Below are positions 39,501-48,364 of a stretch of 64,000 bases of DNA, piece by piece. The notes below the pieces were generated by a model. It was not told the DNA's origin and did no database searches. It saw only the letters and a list, made by a program, of their open reading frames with translations. Each line of letters starts with the position of its first letter. Within the stretch, counting starts at the first letter, position 1. The DNA comes from Desulfobacterales bacterium (GTDB taxonomy: Bacteria; Desulfobacterota; Desulfobacteria; Desulfobacterales; JARGFK01). The stretch covers positions 1-64,000 of the forward strand of contig JARGFK010000008.1 of NCBI GenBank assembly GCA_029211065.1. The letters run 5' to 3'. The position numbers were made by a program, and so were the translations under genes.

Positions 39501-40829
39501 TTAGTCGCCGGCAACATACGCCGTCAGCCAGCGGGCCGTTCTGAGCAGCCGGGCATCATCCCCTTTCACACCGACCAGCTGCACCCCCAGCGGCATGCCG
39601 GCTGCGCCCTGCAGGATGGGCAGCGTAATGGCCGGCATTCCGCACAGCGTCCAAATGGTGCAAAAAACCGGGCTGCCCGTCGATTCCAGACCGACAGGCG
39701 CCACCCCGGTCGTGGCAGGCGTCAATATGGCGTCATGCCAGTCAAATATATTATCGAACGCACGGTTGAGAACCGGTATCCGGCCCAGCGCATGGTTGTA
39801 ATCTTTTGCCAACACCTTCTGCCCGCGCTCGATCATCTCCCGCAGGATGGCACTCAGCTTGTCCTTGCCGCGGTCATATTCCGGCGCAAAGCTCCGGGCC
39901 AGGTCCGCTTCCATGATCGTACGATGCAGCAAAACCGCATCGTTGAAAATTTCCGGAAGTGCGACTTCATCTGCAATTTCACCCAGATGCGTGACCAGTT
40001 CCGTAAAGGCTTCCCGGGTGTCAGACTCAGCCTGATCCCACATGGGCGTTTTGACGAATGCCAGCCGCGGCTGAAAAGGCGGGTCCTCGGCTGCGGTCTT
40101 AACCAGCGGCGGACGGGCCCGCAGCCGCGTATCGGGGTCGTGTTCGTCAAACCCCATGAGCTGTTCCGTGATCAGCGCCGTATCTTCCACAGTTCGGGCA
40201 AACACCCCGATCTGGTCCAGGGGACGGGACTGCTGAAGCACCCGGTGCCGGGAAATACGGCCGTAACTGGGTTTGAAGCCGAATATCCCGCAGTAAGATG
40301 CCGGCCGGATGACCGATCCGTTGGTCTGCGTGCCGACAGCCAACGTCACCATGCCCGCCGCCACCGCTGCGGCCGAACCGCTCGAAGAACCGCCGGGCGA
40401 CCGCTCCAGATCATGCGGGTTGCGGGTCTTGCCCGGTGCGTATACCGCCAGCTCGGTGGTAACGGTCTTTCCCAGAATAACCGCACCGGCTGCCCGCAAC
40501 CGGGCGACGGCCGCGGCATCCTGTTGGGGCTGCCGTCCGGCATGCAGCACCGTACCGTCCTCGGTGGGCATGTCATGGGTATCGAAAATATCCTTGACGC
40601 CCACCGGAACGCCATGGAGCGCACCCAGGGGCTTGCCTTCCCGCTGCAGGCGATCCACAGCCCGGGCCTGTTCCAAGGCATGCGCCGGGTCCAGATGGGC
40701 CCAGGCGCAGACCTTATCTTCAGTCGTCGCGATGTGATCGAGGCAGGCCTGCACCAGCTCTTCAGAGGTGATCCGACCGTCACGGATGGCTGCTGCCGCT
40801 TCAACGGCACTGATCAGAGGCAAATCCAT
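39501..40829 (-). CDS. Amidase (amidase-signature family)
   Basis: 442 residues. The signature GGSSSGSAAAVAAGMVTLAV, containing the Ser-cis-Ser nucleophile region, and the catalytic Lys region (GVPVGVKDIFDTHD) are intact, with a family C-terminus (GMPLGVQLVGVKGDDARLL). It hydrolyses an amide bond of unknown substrate. It lies 42 bases after dctM. An amide or N-acylated compound imported by this TRAP system is one possible substrate. GatA is unlikely because gatB and gatC are absent. Confidence 0.9.
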   Translation of the reverse strand: MDLPLISAVEAAAAIRDGRITSEELVQACLDHIATTEDKVCAWAHLDPAHALEQARAVDRLQREGKPLGALHGVPVGVKDIFDTHDMPTEDGTVLHAGRQPQQDAAAVARLRAAGAVILGKTVTTELAVYAPGKTRNPHDLERSPGGSSSGSAAAVAAGMVTLAVGTQTNGSVIRPASYCGIFGFKPSYGRISRHRVLQQSRPLDQIGVFARTVEDTALITEQLMGFDEHDPDTRLRARPPLVKTAAEDPPFQPRLAFVKTPMWDQAESDTREAFTELVTHLGEIADEVALPEIFNDAVLLHRTIMEADLARSFAPEYDRGKDKLSAILREMIERGQKVLAKDYNHALGRIPVLNRAFDNIFDWHDAILTPATTGVAPVGLESTGSPVFCTIWTLCGMPAITLPILQGAAGMPLGVQLVGVKGDDARLLRTARWLTAYVAGD

Positions 40830-40871: not shown

Positions 40872-42230
40872 CTACTTGGGCACGCCGTAGACCATGTCCG
40901 GCAGCCAGGTTGTTATGATCGGGAATTGATACAAAACAACCATGGCAATGATCACCATGAACAGAAACGGCAACGCCCCTTTAAAAATCGTGGTCAGCTG
41001 GATATGGGGCGGCGCGATTCCTTTCAGATAATAGCACGACATTGCCATGGGCGGCGTCAGGAACGAAGTCTGCAGGTTGAGTGCCACCAGAATCCCGAAA
41101 AACAAGGGGTCGATCTTGAAGGCATCCAGCAGCGGCAGAAAAATCGGAACAAAAATGATGATGATTTCGCTCCACTCCAGGGGCCAGCCCAAAAGAAAGA
41201 TGATGACCTGGGCCAGCAGCAGAAACAAGACCGGCGGAAGGTTCAGGCCGATCACAAATTCTTCGATGACATGATGGCCGCCGAGGTAGGAAAAGACCGA
41301 TGAAAAAGTCCAGGAGCCCACGAACAGCCAGCAGACCATGGCCGAGGTGCGCGTCGTCAGATAGACCGACTGTTTCAGGCGGTCCCAGGTAAGTTCGCGA
41401 TAGCTCGCCGCCAGGACGATGCTGCCGAAGGCCCCCACGGATGCGGCCTCGGAGGGGGTCGCCAGCCCGAACAGAATGGCCCCCAGAACCGACAGGATCA
41501 GAACGGCCAGCGGCACAAACGACGTCAGCAGCATCACGAAAAGCTCTTTGGTCGGAATATCCCACTGTTCCTTGGGCGGTTTGGGCGCCAGCTTGGGGTT
41601 CAGAACGGCCCGACCGATCACGTACATAATATAGAGACTGGCCAGCATAAACCCGGGAATCAACGCACCGGCATACAGCCTTACCACGGAGACGCCGGAC
41701 ACCGCACCATAAACGATCAGCATGATGCTCGGCGGGATCAGGATGCCGAGGCAGCCGCCGGCGCAAACGACACCGGCCGCCAGCTTCTCATCATAGCCGG
41801 CTTTCAAGAGGGCCGGAAACGCCAAGAGGCCCATCAGGGTCACCACGGCGCCGACAATGCCGACGGCGGTGGCAAAGACGGCACAGGTCACCAGGGCTGC
41901 AACCGCCATGGCGCCGGGTACGACGCGGGCGGCAATATTCAGAGAATAGAACAGCCGCTCCACGATGTTGGCGCGTTCAACGATATACCCCATGAAAAGG
42001 AACAGCGGGACCGCCACCAAAACGTCGTTGATCATAACCGAATAGGTCTGGTTGACCAGCAGATCGAAAATCTGGTTCTGGAAGATATGCGACATCTGGT
42101 CCGGTGAGGCATAGGCGTAATAGCCGAAGCCCACGCCCATGGCGACCAGCGTAAAACAAATGGGAAAGCCCAGGAGGATGCACAGGATAAAGGACCCCAT
42201 CATCAACATGGCGACTTGCGGATCAGTCAT
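40872..42230 (-). CDS. dctM: TRAP transporter large permease (DctM)
   Basis: 452 residues with around 12 hydrophobic segments and the DctM family pattern (GFPICFTLVAMGVGFGYYAY; GILIPPSIMLIVYGAVSGVS; LLGWPLEWSEIIIIFVPIFL). It is the sodium-driven permease, overlapping the end of dctQ by four bases. It works with DctQ and DctP in the same operon. Related members carry mannitol/chloroaromatic or other organic acids, so the substrate stays open. Confidence 0.92.
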   Translation of the reverse strand: MTDPQVAMLMMGSFILCILLGFPICFTLVAMGVGFGYYAYASPDQMSHIFQNQIFDLLVNQTYSVMINDVLVAVPLFLFMGYIVERANIVERLFYSLNIAARVVPGAMAVAALVTCAVFATAVGIVGAVVTLMGLLAFPALLKAGYDEKLAAGVVCAGGCLGILIPPSIMLIVYGAVSGVSVVRLYAGALIPGFMLASLYIMYVIGRAVLNPKLAPKPPKEQWDIPTKELFVMLLTSFVPLAVLILSVLGAILFGLATPSEAASVGAFGSIVLAASYRELTWDRLKQSVYLTTRTSAMVCWLFVGSWTFSSVFSYLGGHHVIEEFVIGLNLPPVLFLLLAQVIIFLLGWPLEWSEIIIIFVPIFLPLLDAFKIDPLFFGILVALNLQTSFLTPPMAMSCYYLKGIAPPHIQLTTIFKGALPFLFMVIIAMVVLYQFPIITTWLPDMVYGVPK

Positions 42231-42886
42231 ATGGCCTCCTCCTTTCCTTCTGCGCTCTGGCCGGCAGCCTGCTCAGCCGCCAGCCGGGCCTCTTCTTCCT
42301 TGCGATGCTTTTCGATCAGTTCTTTTTCCATTTCTTCTACGTCCGCCAACCGCGTCGGCCACGCGCCGGTTTTAATGCACTGCACGCAGCGTATGGCTTC
42401 CGCGATTCCCTGCAGCAGTAGAAAGAACGCGGCCACGGGTATGACGGTCTTCAGGGGAAACACCGGCACCCCGGCGGGGCTGTTGATGCTGATTTCCCCG
42501 ATCGGCCCGGTGAATCCATAGGGCCTGTACCCCCAGGATTCGGCGGCATAATCATATCCGGCATAGATTAAAGCCAGGACGCCGGGAAAGAAAAATATAA
42601 AGTACAGCACGATTTCGATGGAGGCCTGTATCCGGGGCGGCCACAGCCGGTAGACAAAATCGCCGCGCACATGCGCATTTCGTGAAAGCGCGTAGGCGCC
42701 CGCCATCATGAACAGGGTGCCGTACATGATGTAACTGACATCAAACGCCCAGGCAGTGGGATTTCGCAAGACGTAGCGGACAAACACCTCGTAAGTGGTC
42801 GCCAGGCACAGCACCAGGATGGTCCAGGCAAAGGCTTTACCCACCCACTGGCTCATGCGGTCGATAAAAAATAGAAAACGATTCAT
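42227..42886 (-). CDS. dctQ: TRAP transporter small permease (DctQ)
   Basis: 219 residues with four membrane helices, an N-terminal FLFFIDRMSQWVGKAFAWTI typical of DctQ, and a long charged, Glu-rich C-terminal tail (EEMEKELIEKHRKEEEARLA) that is longer than usual. The overlap with dctM implies translational coupling. It lies 126 bases after dctP. Confidence 0.88.
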   Translation of the reverse strand: MNRFLFFIDRMSQWVGKAFAWTILVLCLATTYEVFVRYVLRNPTAWAFDVSYIMYGTLFMMAGAYALSRNAHVRGDFVYRLWPPRIQASIEIVLYFIFFFPGVLALIYAGYDYAAESWGYRPYGFTGPIGEISINSPAGVPVFPLKTVIPVAAFFLLLQGIAEAIRCVQCIKTGAWPTRLADVEEMEKELIEKHRKEEEARLAAEQAAGQSAEGKEEAI

Positions 42887-43011: not shown

Positions 43012-44151
43012 TTAGAATCCCAGCTCGCCGGGGAAGTAATGATCGAAGGCCAGCTTGTAATCGCATGAGTTGAGAATATCGTAGTATGCCGTACGATAAG
43101 CGAATTCCTTCTGTGACGCCACAACCTTCTTGAAGAACGGATCTTTCTCCAGATCCGGCAGGAGTTTGTCCCAAGCTTCCAACTGCTTTTTCATAACCGA
43201 TGTCGGCGTGCGGTAAATGCCGACGCCCGCTGATTTCTTCAGCCACTGCAGATCCTTGGAGTACTGATCCTGTCCGCGCCAGTAATTGGCCGAAGAGGCC
43301 GCTTCGGCTGCATATCTCAGAATGGCCTGGTGCTCCTTCGGCAGGGCATCGTACTTGGTCTTGTTGAAGAGAATCTCGAAGAATTCCGCGGCCTGATGGA
43401 AGCTTCCCAGCATGTAGACCTTGCTCACGTCCTGGGCGCCGAAGCTTCTGTCCGAGGTCGGGTTGTTGAACTCGAAAGCCTCGATAACGCCGCGTTCCAG
43501 GGCCGGCACGATTTCGCCGCCGGGAAGCTGGGTAACCTTCAACCCCATGGCCTGCATCAGGTCGGCTGCCAGACCCACGGTGCGGTACTTGAGGCCGACC
43601 ATGTCGTCGGCGCTCTTGATCGGTTTCTTGAACCAGCCCAGCGGCTGGGTCGGCATCGGCATGGCAAAGAAGCCGACGATGTTGAGCCCCAGCGCCTTGA
43701 GGAGTTCCTGATAGAGTTCCAAGCCGCCGCCGTAATAAATCCATGCCAGTCCCTGGTGAGCATTCTGGCCGAAGACGGGGCCGGTGCCGAACAGCGATGC
43801 CACCTTGCTCTTGCCGTACCAGTAAACCGACACCTGATGTCCGGCATCAAGCACGCCCTTATCAACGGCATCCTGAACGCGGAAGGCGGCAACCACGGCG
43901 CCTGAAATCAGATACTGAATCTTCAGCCGGCCGCCGGCCATCGCGTTGACGCGATCTACATAGTCCATGGCCATGTCGTTGAAGATGTCCTTTGCGCCCC
44001 AGGCGCCTTGCATCTTCAAGGTGACTGTCTGTGCCCGGGATACCATCGGAAAACCCAGTGTTGACGCGGCTGCAACCCCTCCGACTACCGCTGCATTCTT
44101 GATAAACTTACGACGTCCGATCTTCTCGCTCTTCACTTCTTTCATAACCAT
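43012..44151 (-). CDS. dctP: TRAP transporter solute-binding protein (DctP), Tat-like signal
   Basis: 379 residues. The N-terminus GRRKFIKNAAVVGGVAAAST is a twin-arginine export signal ending near VSRA. The mature part fits the DctP/TakP group (LKMQGAWGAKDIFNDMAMDY, FEFNNPTSDRSFG, WDKLLPDLEKDPFFKKV), whose members often bind 2-oxo acids, lactate or similar compounds. It is the first gene of the TRAP operon, downstream of gntR. A GntR-type palindrome lies upstream at 44321-44336. Ligand unknown. Confidence 0.9.
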   Translation of the reverse strand: MVMKEVKSEKIGRRKFIKNAAVVGGVAAASTLGFPMVSRAQTVTLKMQGAWGAKDIFNDMAMDYVDRVNAMAGGRLKIQYLISGAVVAAFRVQDAVDKGVLDAGHQVSVYWYGKSKVASLFGTGPVFGQNAHQGLAWIYYGGGLELYQELLKALGLNIVGFFAMPMPTQPLGWFKKPIKSADDMVGLKYRTVGLAADLMQAMGLKVTQLPGGEIVPALERGVIEAFEFNNPTSDRSFGAQDVSKVYMLGSFHQAAEFFEILFNKTKYDALPKEHQAILRYAAEAASSANYWRGQDQYSKDLQWLKKSAGVGIYRTPTSVMKKQLEAWDKLLPDLEKDPFFKKVVASQKEFAYRTAYYDILNSCDYKLAFDHYFPGELGF

Positions 44152-44320: not shown

Positions 44321-44336
44321 AAATATCCTAATATTT
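44321..44336. promoter_or_regulatory. GntR-type palindrome upstream of dctP
   Basis: AAATATCCTAATATTT matches the palindrome at 45260-45275 in 15 of 16 positions, and both are followed by CACAATTT. It is a likely operator for the neighbouring GntR regulator. Confidence 0.65.
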
Positions 44337-44453
44337 CACAATTTATGCAATTTGATCTTTTCTTAAAGTCATAGATTGTCTTATACACAGTGTCAAGTGC
44401 TTTTTTACAACGATCCTTTACCATCGCTTTTGTCGTAGCACAAACCCAATCTG

Positions 44454-45185
44454 TTATATTTTTTCAAGCTGTCTGATGAAAGTTTCCTGCATCGGAGCCA
44501 GAAACGCTTCAACCCTTGAGACATCTTTATACATTTCGCTGAAAGCTTTTTCAGCGTCCCCTTCGGCAAGGGCGTCATAAATGCGTATGTGGGCCGCCAA
44601 CACCGACTGAAAAAAATCATTGTCGGGTCTCAACTGCTTTTTGATGTCTTCCAGCAGATCTTCAACGAAGGCTAAAATGAATACGAGAATGGGATTTTCC
44701 GAGCAATTGGCGATGACGCGATGGAACCGGATAATATCCTTTTCGACCTTTTCCGTATCCCCCTGCTCCAGGGCCTGGGTACACCTGTCGTTGATATCTT
44801 TCAACGCCATAAGTTTTTCCGGTCGAATGGCATCGGCGGCTATCTTAGCGACATATGGCTCCAGGACTTTTCTAATTTCCGACAGATGATATACTGAGAC
44901 ATTTTTAAAATAAAGAAAGTTGACCAGACTCTGCTGGGTTGTCTTCATATCCACTTCGGAAACAAAGACTCCCCCCTTGGCCCCTTTTTTGATTTCGATC
45001 AACCCCATGACTTCCAGGGTTCTCAATGCTTCCCTGAGGGTGGACTTGCTGACGGCGAACTCTTCCATCAGTTTTTTTTCAGAATAAAGTTTTTGCCCCG
45101 GGCCGATCTCTCCTTTTAAAATCGCATTTCGTATCTGGTTGATGATTTTCTGGGGCGCCTTGCTGCTGGTGATGGATTTGAACAT
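44454..45185 (-). CDS. GntR (FadR-type) transcriptional regulator
   Basis: 243 residues. N-terminal GntR winged helix (EFAVSKSTLREALRTLEVMG, LIEIKKGAKGGVFVSEV) and C-terminal all-helical FCD ligand domain (RKVLEPYVAKIAADAI, then DIIRFHRVIANCSENP with metal-binding Asp/His). It probably represses the dctPQM-amidase operon and the divergent aldehyde dehydrogenase through the shared palindromes at 44321 and 45260, and itself. The ligand should be related to the transported substrate. Confidence 0.92.
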   Translation of the reverse strand: MFKSITSSKAPQKIINQIRNAILKGEIGPGQKLYSEKKLMEEFAVSKSTLREALRTLEVMGLIEIKKGAKGGVFVSEVDMKTTQQSLVNFLYFKNVSVYHLSEIRKVLEPYVAKIAADAIRPEKLMALKDINDRCTQALEQGDTEKVEKDIIRFHRVIANCSENPILVFILAFVEDLLEDIKKQLRPDNDFFQSVLAAHIRIYDALAEGDAEKAFSEMYKDVSRVEAFLAPMQETFIRQLEKI

Positions 45186-45259
45186 AATTCCTCAGAGAGT
45201 CTGGGGCGAATTGTTGTTTGGATACCGATTATTTATTAGGGCAAACTTCAATTGTCAAC

Positions 45260-45275
45260 AAATATTCTAATATTT
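45260..45275. promoter_or_regulatory. GntR-type palindrome between gntR and the aldehyde dehydrogenase
   Basis: AAATATTCTAATATTT is a perfect inverted repeat (AAATATT, CT, AATATTT) in the 250-bp divergent region. It shares the CACAATTT flank with the site at 44321. Confidence 0.7.
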
Positions 45276-45435
45276 CACAATTTTAATATTTGTATTGCAA
45301 TAAGCCTTGTCGTTTTGTATGAACAGAAAGCTGATTTATCCGCGCGCACCCTTGAAGATCCTGCGCCGATACTATTTTGCAGATCGAACCGAAAAAAATA
45401 CTGTTGCCTTTAAGTAAGCGAAAGGAGTGAATATA

Positions 45436-46977
45436 ATGCCTGCGAATCCCAAAAAGTTAAAATATTGCTCGGATGGAAAGTGGCTGGAATCCAAGACTTC
45501 CAGTTATATGGATTGTTACAACCCGTCTACGGGTGAAGTGATTGCCCGGGCGCCCCAGTGTACGGCGGACGAAGTGGAATCCGCCATTCTGGCAGCCCAG
45601 AGGGCCTATCCGGCCTGGGCGGACACGCCGGTCAACAACCGGGTGCAGGTGCTTTTCAGAATGAAGGCCCTGGTGGAAAAACATCTGGATGAACTGACCC
45701 GTCTGCTGGCGATGGAGCAGGGCAAAAAATGGGATGAAGCCATGGGCGACGTCCTCAAGGTCAACGAAGTGATCGAGTTTGCCTGCGGCGCGCCCCATAT
45801 CATGAAAGGCGAATCCCTGATGAACGTTTCCCGGGGCTATGATACCACGCTTTACCATCACCCCGTCGGCGTTTTCGCCGGGATTGCCCCCTGGAACTTT
45901 CCGGCCATGATTCCCCACGGCTGGATGACCCCCATTTGCCTGGGCGCCGGAAATACCATGGTGTTAAAGGCCGCCAGTTTCGTGCCCCAGAGTTCCCTGC
46001 GTCTGATGGAATTGTGGCAGGAAGCCGGACTCCCGGATGGCGTACTAAACGTCCTTACCACAGGACGCGAACAGGCTGAGATTCTGCTCAGGCATCCGGC
46101 GGTCAAGGGCGTATCCTTTGTGGGTTCAACCAAGGTTGGGCAGCATATTTACGCCACAGCAGCGGCAAACGGCAAACGGGTGCAGGCCCTGTGTGAAGCC
46201 AAGAATCATGCCCTGGTCCTGCGAGACTGCAAGCTGGAGCGCACCGCCCGCGGTATTATCAATGCGTTTTGCGGCTGCGCCGGGGAACGCTGCATGGCGC
46301 TTCCGGCCGTCGTGGTGGAAAACGCCATTGCCGATGAACTGGCTCAGCTGCTGGTCAAGTTTGCTTCCGAGATGAAGCTGGGGCCTGCCTACGAAAAAAT
46401 CACCGACCTGGGTCCGGTGGTAAATGCCGGGCATCTCAAATTCGTAACCGACTGGATTCAAACCGGCGTGGATGAGGGCGCCCGGCTGTTGCTGGACGGG
46501 CGCAATCCCAAGGTCCCCGGCTATGAAGGCGGCTTCTACATCGCCCCCACGATTTTTGACCATGTAACCGAGGAAATGTCCATCGGCCGGGAAGAGGTTT
46601 TCGGGCCGGTGCTCTGCATCAAACGGGTGGACAATTTTGAGGAAGGGCTTGCGATCATGAACAGCAGCCGCTTTGCCAACGGTTCGGCCATTTATACCCA
46701 GAACGGTCATTACGCCCGGGAATTCGCCAAACGGACCGACGGCGGCATGGTGGGGATCAATGTGGGCATCCCGGTGCCGGTGGGGATCTTCGGATTCACC
46801 GGTCACAAGGATTCCTTTTTCGGAGATCTGCACGTTATGGGAAAGGACGGTTTTTCGTTTTACACCGAAACCAAATGCGTTACCAGCACCTGGTTCCCGG
46901 AGGATGACTCTGGATGTAAAAAAGTCGACACCTGGGATGGCACCATGGCCTGCCTGCCGGAAGCGGGTAAAAAATGA
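45436..46977 (+). CDS. CoA-acylating aldehyde dehydrogenase (methylmalonate-semialdehyde dehydrogenase-like)
   Basis: 513 residues from ATG 45436 (AAAGGAG upstream). The family resembles MmsA: catalytic Cys in AFCGCAGERCMALPAV, oxyanion Asn in GIAPWNFPAMIPHGWM, NAD-binding GSTKVGQHIYATAA. MmsA-type enzymes make acyl-CoA from a semialdehyde, NAD+ and CoA. The acidic Glu typical of hydrolytic dehydrogenases is replaced as in MmsA. Control by the adjacent GntR and divergence from the TRAP operon link it to the imported compound. Confidence 0.85.
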   Translation: MPANPKKLKYCSDGKWLESKTSSYMDCYNPSTGEVIARAPQCTADEVESAILAAQRAYPAWADTPVNNRVQVLFRMKALVEKHLDELTRLLAMEQGKKWDEAMGDVLKVNEVIEFACGAPHIMKGESLMNVSRGYDTTLYHHPVGVFAGIAPWNFPAMIPHGWMTPICLGAGNTMVLKAASFVPQSSLRLMELWQEAGLPDGVLNVLTTGREQAEILLRHPAVKGVSFVGSTKVGQHIYATAAANGKRVQALCEAKNHALVLRDCKLERTARGIINAFCGCAGERCMALPAVVVENAIADELAQLLVKFASEMKLGPAYEKITDLGPVVNAGHLKFVTDWIQTGVDEGARLLLDGRNPKVPGYEGGFYIAPTIFDHVTEEMSIGREEVFGPVLCIKRVDNFEEGLAIMNSSRFANGSAIYTQNGHYAREFAKRTDGGMVGINVGIPVPVGIFGFTGHKDSFFGDLHVMGKDGFSFYTETKCVTSTWFPEDDSGCKKVDTWDGTMACLPEAGKK

Positions 46978-47227: not shown

Positions 47228-48364
47228 CTATTCTTTCGGTTTTCCCAGCACTTCGGCGAACATATCCATATCCCAAGCTTTCATGTCGGCCACATTCTGT
47301 CGGAACTTGATAAAATCGATGGTATCCTGGCCGGTGATTTTCTTGGTATTGAATGCGCCGAAACCCAAAAAGGCTTCGCCGCTCATATTTGCGGCCAGCC
47401 AATGTCTGTGGTCATTTTTCATTGTATCCCAGAAGAATTTCTTTTTCTGACGGATACCGTCAATGGATTTAATCAGGCAACCCGGGAACAGGTTGGCAAA
47501 CTTCCAGATGACATTGTTGACCTCTTTGTCAAGAAGTTCAAAGTCGGCTTTTTCCTGATGCTGTTTGAGAATCTCCCGGCCGTCTTTGAAGGCCTGTCCG
47601 GATTTATATTCGCCGTAAACGATCTCTCCGTCTTCAACATATTTGTCAGTGACAATCGTGGGGTTTCTGACCCATTGACCGTCGATTTTAAGAACCGGAA
47701 CCACCTTGGAAAGCATTCCTTTTGCTTTCATTTTATAGGCCGACCACATCTCGCAGGATACGCAGTTCCACATGGCATCTTCTGCACTCAGGAACCAGGG
47801 AAGGAAATCCGAGGAACCGCCGGCCGGGGCTGAACCGTGCCTGGGACCGGCCTGGCCGAAAATGGCAAGGTCGGAAGCTACGGCGATGTCACATGCCAGT
47901 CCGATCTCCTGACCACCGGCAACCCGCATGCCGTTAACCCGGCAAATCACCGGTTTTTTACACGCCAGGATGGAATCGACCATGTGGTTGAACAGCTCCA
48001 TGTACTGACCATATTCATCACATCTTCTGGAATAGAATTCAGAATATTCTTTTGTATTGCCGCCGGTGCAGAATGCATAGGGGCCTGTACCGGTAAAAAC
48101 AACCGCCACCACGCTTCTGTCCAGAGAAGCATTTTCAAAACCGGCGATAACACCTTTAACCATTTCCGTGGTGTACGAATTGTACTGCCGAGGATTGTTC
48201 AGGCGAATCCAGGATACGAACAGTTTGTCCACAACCTTGCCGCCCGGGTCCGTCAGGGGGCGCTTCTCGTAGACCACGCAGGGGGCTTCCGTCCCCCAGT
48301 GACCGTCGGTATGCAGGGCATGGTCTTTTGCGTGATTGTCTCGCGGCATCCATTCTAAAGCCAT
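47228..48364 (-). CDS. bamA: 6-oxocyclohex-1-ene-1-carbonyl-CoA hydrolase (ring opening)
   Basis: 378 residues, of the crotonase superfamily but longer, matching BamA/Oah: an N-terminus with HWGTEAPCVVYEKRPLTDPG, the oxyanion segments GTGPYAFCTGGNTKEYSEFY and RVAGGQEIGLACDIAVASDL, then the BamA-specific GQAGPRHGSAPAGGSSDFLP. It adds water twice and cleaves the ring to give 3-hydroxypimelyl-CoA. AAAGGAG lies before the ATG. It follows bamQ by 62 bases. This gene is the usual marker of anaerobic aromatic degraders. Confidence 0.96.
   Translation of the reverse strand: MALEWMPRDNHAKDHALHTDGHWGTEAPCVVYEKRPLTDPGGKVVDKLFVSWIRLNNPRQYNSYTTEMVKGVIAGFENASLDRSVVAVVFTGTGPYAFCTGGNTKEYSEFYSRRCDEYGQYMELFNHMVDSILACKKPVICRVNGMRVAGGQEIGLACDIAVASDLAIFGQAGPRHGSAPAGGSSDFLPWFLSAEDAMWNCVSCEMWSAYKMKAKGMLSKVVPVLKIDGQWVRNPTIVTDKYVEDGEIVYGEYKSGQAFKDGREILKQHQEKADFELLDKEVNNVIWKFANLFPGCLIKSIDGIRQKKKFFWDTMKNDHRHWLAANMSGEAFLGFGAFNTKKITGQDTIDFIKFRQNVADMKAWDMDMFAEVLGKPKE

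Follow-up and report, generated by a model that had tools for sequence, protein, structure and literature searches.

The window, i.e., the whole stretch of 64,000 nucleotides analyzed here, carries a regulator gene (gntR) that is divergent from aldH, a gene of the methylmalonate-semialdehyde-dehydrogenase family, and that is followed on its own strand by genes for a TRAP transporter (dctP, dctQ, and dctM) and for an amidase-signature hydrolase (Table 1). The 24-mer AAATATYCTAATATTTCACAATTT, where Y is position 7, occurs at 44321–44344 and at 45260–45283, 939 bp apart, and the two copies are identical in 23 of 24 bases, or in 24 of 25 when the preceding C is included. The original prediction described twin palindromes flanking the regulator gene; both palindromes were confirmed, as was the gntR gene lying between them, but both copies are on the + strand and are thus direct repeats. 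It also had the sites facing dctP on one side and the aldehyde dehydrogenase on the other, which holds for 44321, situated in the gntR–dctP gap, while 45260, in the intergenic space of gntR and aldH, could act on the two of them. At 45260 all seven arm pairs of the palindrome are inverted around a 2-base centre; one arm pair is mismatched at 44321.

Table 1. Coordinates of the genes and candidate regulatory features at the gntR locus (positions in the window).
Feature	Position	Strand	Remarks
Operator site 1, AAATATTAGAATATTT on gntR strand (putative)	45260..45275	-	1 bp upstream of candidate gntR -35 TTGACA; palindrome in 16/16 clade A loci
Degraded tandem second palindrome, CACAATTTTAATATTT on + (putative)	45276..45291	-	12/16 to consensus; equivalent 16 bp in G055 = AAATATTATAATATTT
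Candidate gntR promoter, TTGACA (45258-45253), 17 bp, TAAATA (45235-45230)	45230..45258	-	TTGACA kept in G143, G055
Candidate aldH promoter, TTGCAA, 17 bp, TATGAA	45295..45323	+	Bases near -35 partly kept in G143, G055
Possible operator site 2, AAATATTAGGATATTT on dctP strand	44321..44336	-	~+26 to +41 of candidate dctP promoter; not conserved in G055 or G143
Candidate dctP promoter, TTGACA, 17 bp, TATGAC	44368..44396	-	10/12 consensus bases
gntR, FadR-subfamily regulator, 243 aa	44454..45185	-	GntR HTH + FCD domain
aldH, methylmalonate-semialdehyde-dehydrogenase family	45436..46977	+	TIGR01722, 552.9 bits, cut-off 448.5
dctP, TRAP solute-binding protein	43012..44151	-	PF03480
dctQ, TRAP small permease	42227..42886	-	PF04290
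dctM, TRAP large permease	40872..42230	-	TIGR00786 over cut-off
Amidase-signature hydrolase	39501..40829	-	After dctM in window, G055, G143

The promoters of gntR, aldH, and dctP are candidates with weak matches to the consensus, and a stricter promoter scan, which gave no excess (3 vs. 2.4), listed none of the three. For aldH, the ATG at 45436, behind AAAGGAG, looks a likelier start than the GTG at 45427. Beyond aldH, the window harbors at 47228–49533 genes for 6-oxocyclohex-1-ene-1-carbonyl-CoA hydratase and 6-hydroxycyclohex-1-ene-1-carbonyl-CoA dehydrogenase, over their cut-offs and belonging to the benzoyl-CoA pathway of anaerobic aromatic breakdown.

Rarity of the repeated sequence

A 24-base match at two sites had been judged unlikely by chance, and the counts bear this out: within 3 mismatches, the 24-mer had no match in 100 shuffles of the window and occurred in the 4.94-Mb genome at 44321 and 45260 only, with zero matches for the reversed control. 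Weaker evidence comes from the 16-bp core at 3 mismatches, with seven matches vs. 1.6 expected, a count that was reached in one of 100 shuffles. Nor did the 24-mer prove to be widespread elsewhere, and loose 16-bp matches stayed at background level, AAATATTNTAATATTT giving 61 matches genome-wide at 2 mismatches vs. 66 for the reversed pattern. These weak matches carry no signal, and a genome-wide regulon based on them was rejected. The genes flanking the match at C25:18426 (L003) have no visible link.

The regulator and its family

The GntR protein combines an N-terminal winged helix-turn-helix (HTH; PF00392, 60.8 bits, cut-off 27) with a C-terminal all-helical FCD domain (PF07729, 73 bits, cut-off 24.3), the layout of the FadR subfamily (FadR, LldR, PdhR, NanR, UxuR, and others). 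Its AlphaFold2 model, based on 19 sequences (mean pLDDT 90, pTM 0.76), has seven helices past the HTH and matched known structures including NanR and NanR-DNA, CGL2915 (2di3), DhdR-DNA, and FadR-DNA entries, with moderate TM-scores by query length (0.42–0.60 among the 50 matches listed). Among the 25 NCBIfam models listed for the protein all remained under cut-off, the best being NanR (117.3/260 bits), and the same was true of named equivalogs or subfamilies such as PdhR (98.3/330), LldR (79.4/311), GlcC (76/301), and UxuR (65.9/442 bits) against their curated cut-offs.

Palindromic sites in a divergon holding the regulator gene are common in the FadR subfamily according to PMC4494728, and the site at 45260 is so placed. 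The label "GntR-type" first given to the palindrome is nonetheless inexact: the TKGT/ACMA boxes (GT and AC 2–3 nt apart), which the same source gives as typical of FadR-subfamily operators, are missing here, and the central hexamer of the clade consensus is TTATAA, not GTMKAC. As BioR and NanR are listed among the exceptions (PMC4494728), the missing boxes concern the type of operator and not membership of the protein family. BioR, in particular, belongs to the FadR subfamily and has a palindrome, TTATMKATAA, that is unusual in being dominated by A/T (PMC4494728); its operator sequence differs from the present one, and the likeness is one of operator type. PMC4494728 was the one pertinent publication found in a literature search that covered few subscription papers and did not extend to RegPrecise, and we make no claim of absence in print.

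Conservation of the palindrome upstream of gntR

Homologues were searched in 96 relatives and in 389 genomes drawn from the class, a sample that the order draw largely repeats, with up to seven candidates scored per genome in the class and order draws. At an E-value of 1e-35 or better, 42 rows in 41 genomes were obtained, window included, and a Syntrophaceae contig (L040) brought the set to 43; L098 and L101 were dropped because the gene was at a contig edge and the upstream stretch was not a true 300 bp, and L041, a 25%-identical relative on a Lachnospiraceae contig, was not used. The resulting tree of 41 rows, rooted at the midpoint and with a long-branch warning that includes L040 and L103, separates clade A (16 rows including the window, support 100/100) from clade B (25 rows).

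Within 300 bp upstream of gntR, all 16 clade A loci possess a 16-bp A/T-only palindrome with consensus AAATATTATAATATTT and 0–2 mismatches, the shuffle fractions per locus being 0.000–0.020. Palindromes made from shuffled half-sites were found in a mean of 0.64 and at most three of the 16 loci (up to 2,000 trials), and the other tiles of the clade A loci yielded a single match out of 842, namely the window's own 44321 site. The clade A site matrix has an information content of 27.6 bits, a value inflated by the choice of sites by best consensus match and by the close kinship of several rows; the shuffled-half and tile controls are therefore the better measure. At genome scale and with at most one mismatch, the palindrome was confined to the gntR place in four of the six relatives tested (G055, G050, G247, and G143, with two overlapping matches there). 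G107 showed two further matches, and in G358 the sole match was elsewhere, the gntR site having 2 mismatches; the neighbours of these additional places (L006, L086, L087) have no visible link, one cluster-protein match at L006 being unrelated.

A near-identical A/T-only palindrome before the regulator gene in related bacteria indicates that the repeated sequence is very probably a docking site of the adjacent regulator. The proposal that the neighbouring GntR uses the palindromes as operators is accordingly upheld for 45260 by strong phylogenetic footprinting, and we hold this site to be its operator with high confidence. UP elements help RNA polymerase, and the block could in principle be one of these and no repressor site, as it is pure A/T bar one base and, in the window, directly precedes a -35-like box. 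We regard this as improbable, since both the two-fold symmetry and the sequence are kept, the distance to TTGAC or TTGAT varies from -2 to 47 bp (none was found in two of the 16 clade A loci), the palindrome is nearly unique in most genomes tested, and the sister clade has a different site.

An alignment of the window with G143 and G055 showed a conserved island that starts close to the aldH -35 region, takes in the palindromes, and ends at the TTGACA of gntR. Two 16-bp palindromes abut in G055, one of which is imperfect, and two overlap by 8 bp in G143; the window has one good palindrome followed by CACAATTTTAATATTT. Considering these pairs, the element CACAATTT, common to both sites of the window, reads best as the decayed, weak left half of a tandem second palindrome, which G055 has in intact form. 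At 44321 the palindrome copy and CACAATTT are repeated, the remainder of the second palindrome is not. Such a tandem copy recalls the weaker extra boxes that PMC4494728 notes beside GntR sites.

A different operator-like palindrome in the sister clade

Clade B regulators, which come from the same order, resemble those of clade A in HTH layout, in Lys at HTH position 38, and in having an operator-like palindrome at the same place, but they differ in its sequence. Instead of the 16-bp A/T-only site, a scan of 400 bp upstream, run without shuffle control, found the 31-bp palindrome AAATATTAAAACATCNGATGTTTTAATATTT with at most 6 mismatches in 21 of the 25 clade B rows and with at most 8 in all 25, with none of the 16 clade A rows at that level. 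The rows sharing it are the clade B rows among L078–L085 and L093–L108; at the loci examined (L078, L083, and L084), genes for an FAD-linked oxidase, for a CCG iron-sulphur protein, and for an aldehyde ferredoxin oxidoreductase are among those nearby. The operator split between the clades is not absolute, as L084, L106, L058, and L103 match the short palindrome with 1–2 mismatches and are the worst for AAATATTAAAACATCNGATGTTTTAATATTT (7–8 mismatches).

HTH position 38 corresponds to FadR Arg-45, which contacts G (Table 1 of PMC4494728), and is Lys in 16/16 clade A and 25/25 clade B rows, i.e., in all 41. Position 40 is Thr in all 16 clade A rows vs. Ser in all 25 of clade B. According to PMC4494728, Ser at this position favours a G/C pair, and the clade B core, which has G/C, points the same way; however, the clades differ by descent, so that the fixed Thr/Ser difference amounts to a single correlated event, and Ser is also present in the four clade B rows with a short A/T match. 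Position 28 (FadR Arg-35) was rejected as the sole cause of the A/T operator because L075 and L077 of clade A keep Arg and have an operator without G. Position 58, read by eye, is not a clean marker of operator type either, with Gln in L075, L077, and 25/25 clade B rows and Lys in the remaining 14 of the 16 rows of clade A. It is conceivable, although we lean against it, that this FCD-type group, with Lys in place of FadR Arg-45, has lost the arginine–guanine contact of the family and recognizes A/T-only palindromes through their shape and through contacts to A/T, and that the nearby Thr/Ser difference in the recognition helix goes along with a natural exchange of operators, short and A/T-only in clade A, long and GAT/ATC-centred in clade B.

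In the FCD domain, the third histidine, which we take to be a metal ligand, falls at gntR residue 221 (window 44523–44525); it is Asp in the window, G143, G055, and probably L040, whereas the 12 remaining clade A rows have His. Asp at this residue may point to another ligand or metal site.

The second copy upstream of dctP

For 44321, the operator proposal draws on its identity with 45260, its rarity, and its place just after the weak candidate dctP promoter, but the site is absent upstream of dctP in the two closest relatives. G055 and G143 have the same dctPQM-amidase operon and no such palindrome upstream of dctP (326 bases were available in G143), which makes the site look like a lineage-specific gain. 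Among 10 dctP relatives (one from G055 and two from G143 included), the best upstream match had 3 mismatches and belonged to one 48%-identical dctP (L113), and a conserved second site upstream of dctP was consequently rejected. Lying some 26–41 bp after the start expected from TTGACA-N17-TATGAC, site 44321 would be fit for a transcription block, and we consider it reasonably likely to be a working operator.

A reading in which only 45260 works, 44321 having arisen by chance or remaining as a relic, with no effect, and the dctPQM-amidase genes being transcribed by read-through from gntR or from an unregulated promoter of its own, agrees with the missing site in G055 and G143 and with the additional arm mismatch of 44321. 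We deem it rather unlikely: the site stands directly after a candidate promoter, and its being the sole further match among 842 tiles, with 24 of 25 bases of site 1 kept, makes a chance origin unlikely. The direct orientation of the repeats on either side of gntR could also suggest the scar of an inserted gntR cassette, i.e., a target-site duplication or recombination sites. This is very improbable and was already disfavoured, because in G055 gntR occupies the same place among the same neighbours with no site in the gntR–dctP gap, and because the upstream site accompanies the gene in 16 genomes.

Neighbouring genes and candidate pathway

G055 has the gene order of the window (aldH, gntR, dctP, dctQ, dctM, amidase, and a 2-hydroxyacid dehydrogenase, the last being on the other strand in the window), with identities of 85% for aldH, 59% for gntR, and 92% for dctM. 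In G143, two contigs start with these genes, one with dctPQM, amidase, and dehydrogenase and the other with gntR and aldH. A malonate-semialdehyde-type aldehyde dehydrogenase (ALDH) similar to that of the window adjoins gntR in 13 of the 16 clade A loci; in L075 and L077 a TRAP transporter adjoins it instead.

Six clade A loci (L068, L070, L071, L072, L076, and L079) also lie in reductive pyrimidine-breakdown clusters, holding at least three of PreT, PreA, dihydropyrimidinase, nitrilase-family amidase, omega-aminotransferase, and nucleobase permease. L068 and L079 have all six genes and L076 all except the permease, while L070 and L071 are truncated at contig ends. The nitrilase and the aminotransferase were named from context, as neither protein reached the curated cut-off of its best model, and the nitrilase-family amidase is likely a beta-ureidopropionase. 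The cluster of L071 contains an ALDH of the window type (67%), which suggests that the two ALDH types share one function. By established pathway biochemistry, the ALDH would convert malonate semialdehyde to acetyl-CoA, so that a related C3 compound can tentatively be put forward as effector.

PreA was over the cut-off in three of the eight genomes searched (G050, G358, G245) and was not found in G000, G143, or G055. Pyrimidine breakdown itself was therefore rejected as the regulon of the window, and the window-type operon probably serves another substrate. A malate synthase gene is located near aldH in G055 and a homologue near aldH in G143 (L067:5141-6739, L066:3578-5176). Malate synthase and the glyoxylate-reductase-like 2-hydroxyacid dehydrogenase hint at a glyoxylate-yielding substrate.

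Proposed regulation and significance

We consider it likely, from the sequence comparisons, that GntR acts as a switch on gntR and aldH and, through the second copy, on dctPQM-amidase. A GntR dimer would bind the 16-bp A/T-only inverted repeat at 45260, which abuts the candidate -35 box of gntR and, together with the decayed tandem copy, fills the space up to that of aldH; this placement suggests that the regulator may repress its own gene and the divergent malonate-semialdehyde-type dehydrogenase jointly. GntR would be released by a ligand of its FCD domain, for which a small acid from the pathway of beta-alanine or malonate semialdehyde is a candidate. In this lineage, the dctPQM-amidase importer operon may have come under the same switch through the second copy, at 44321, which lies a short way past the candidate promoter of that operon.

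Overall, the case is sound and the regulator a mostly ordinary local one, lifted slightly by the A/T-only operator, by Lys in place of Arg, and by a sister clade whose apparent operator differs. A guess made by eye has become an operator that can be tested, with a conserved sequence and a hypothesis on its regulon. The analysis also connects a regulator group of this order with the malonate semialdehyde step in the reductive breakdown of pyrimidines and in related degradation. The pair of clades A and B offers a natural case for how GntR proteins change DNA specificity.
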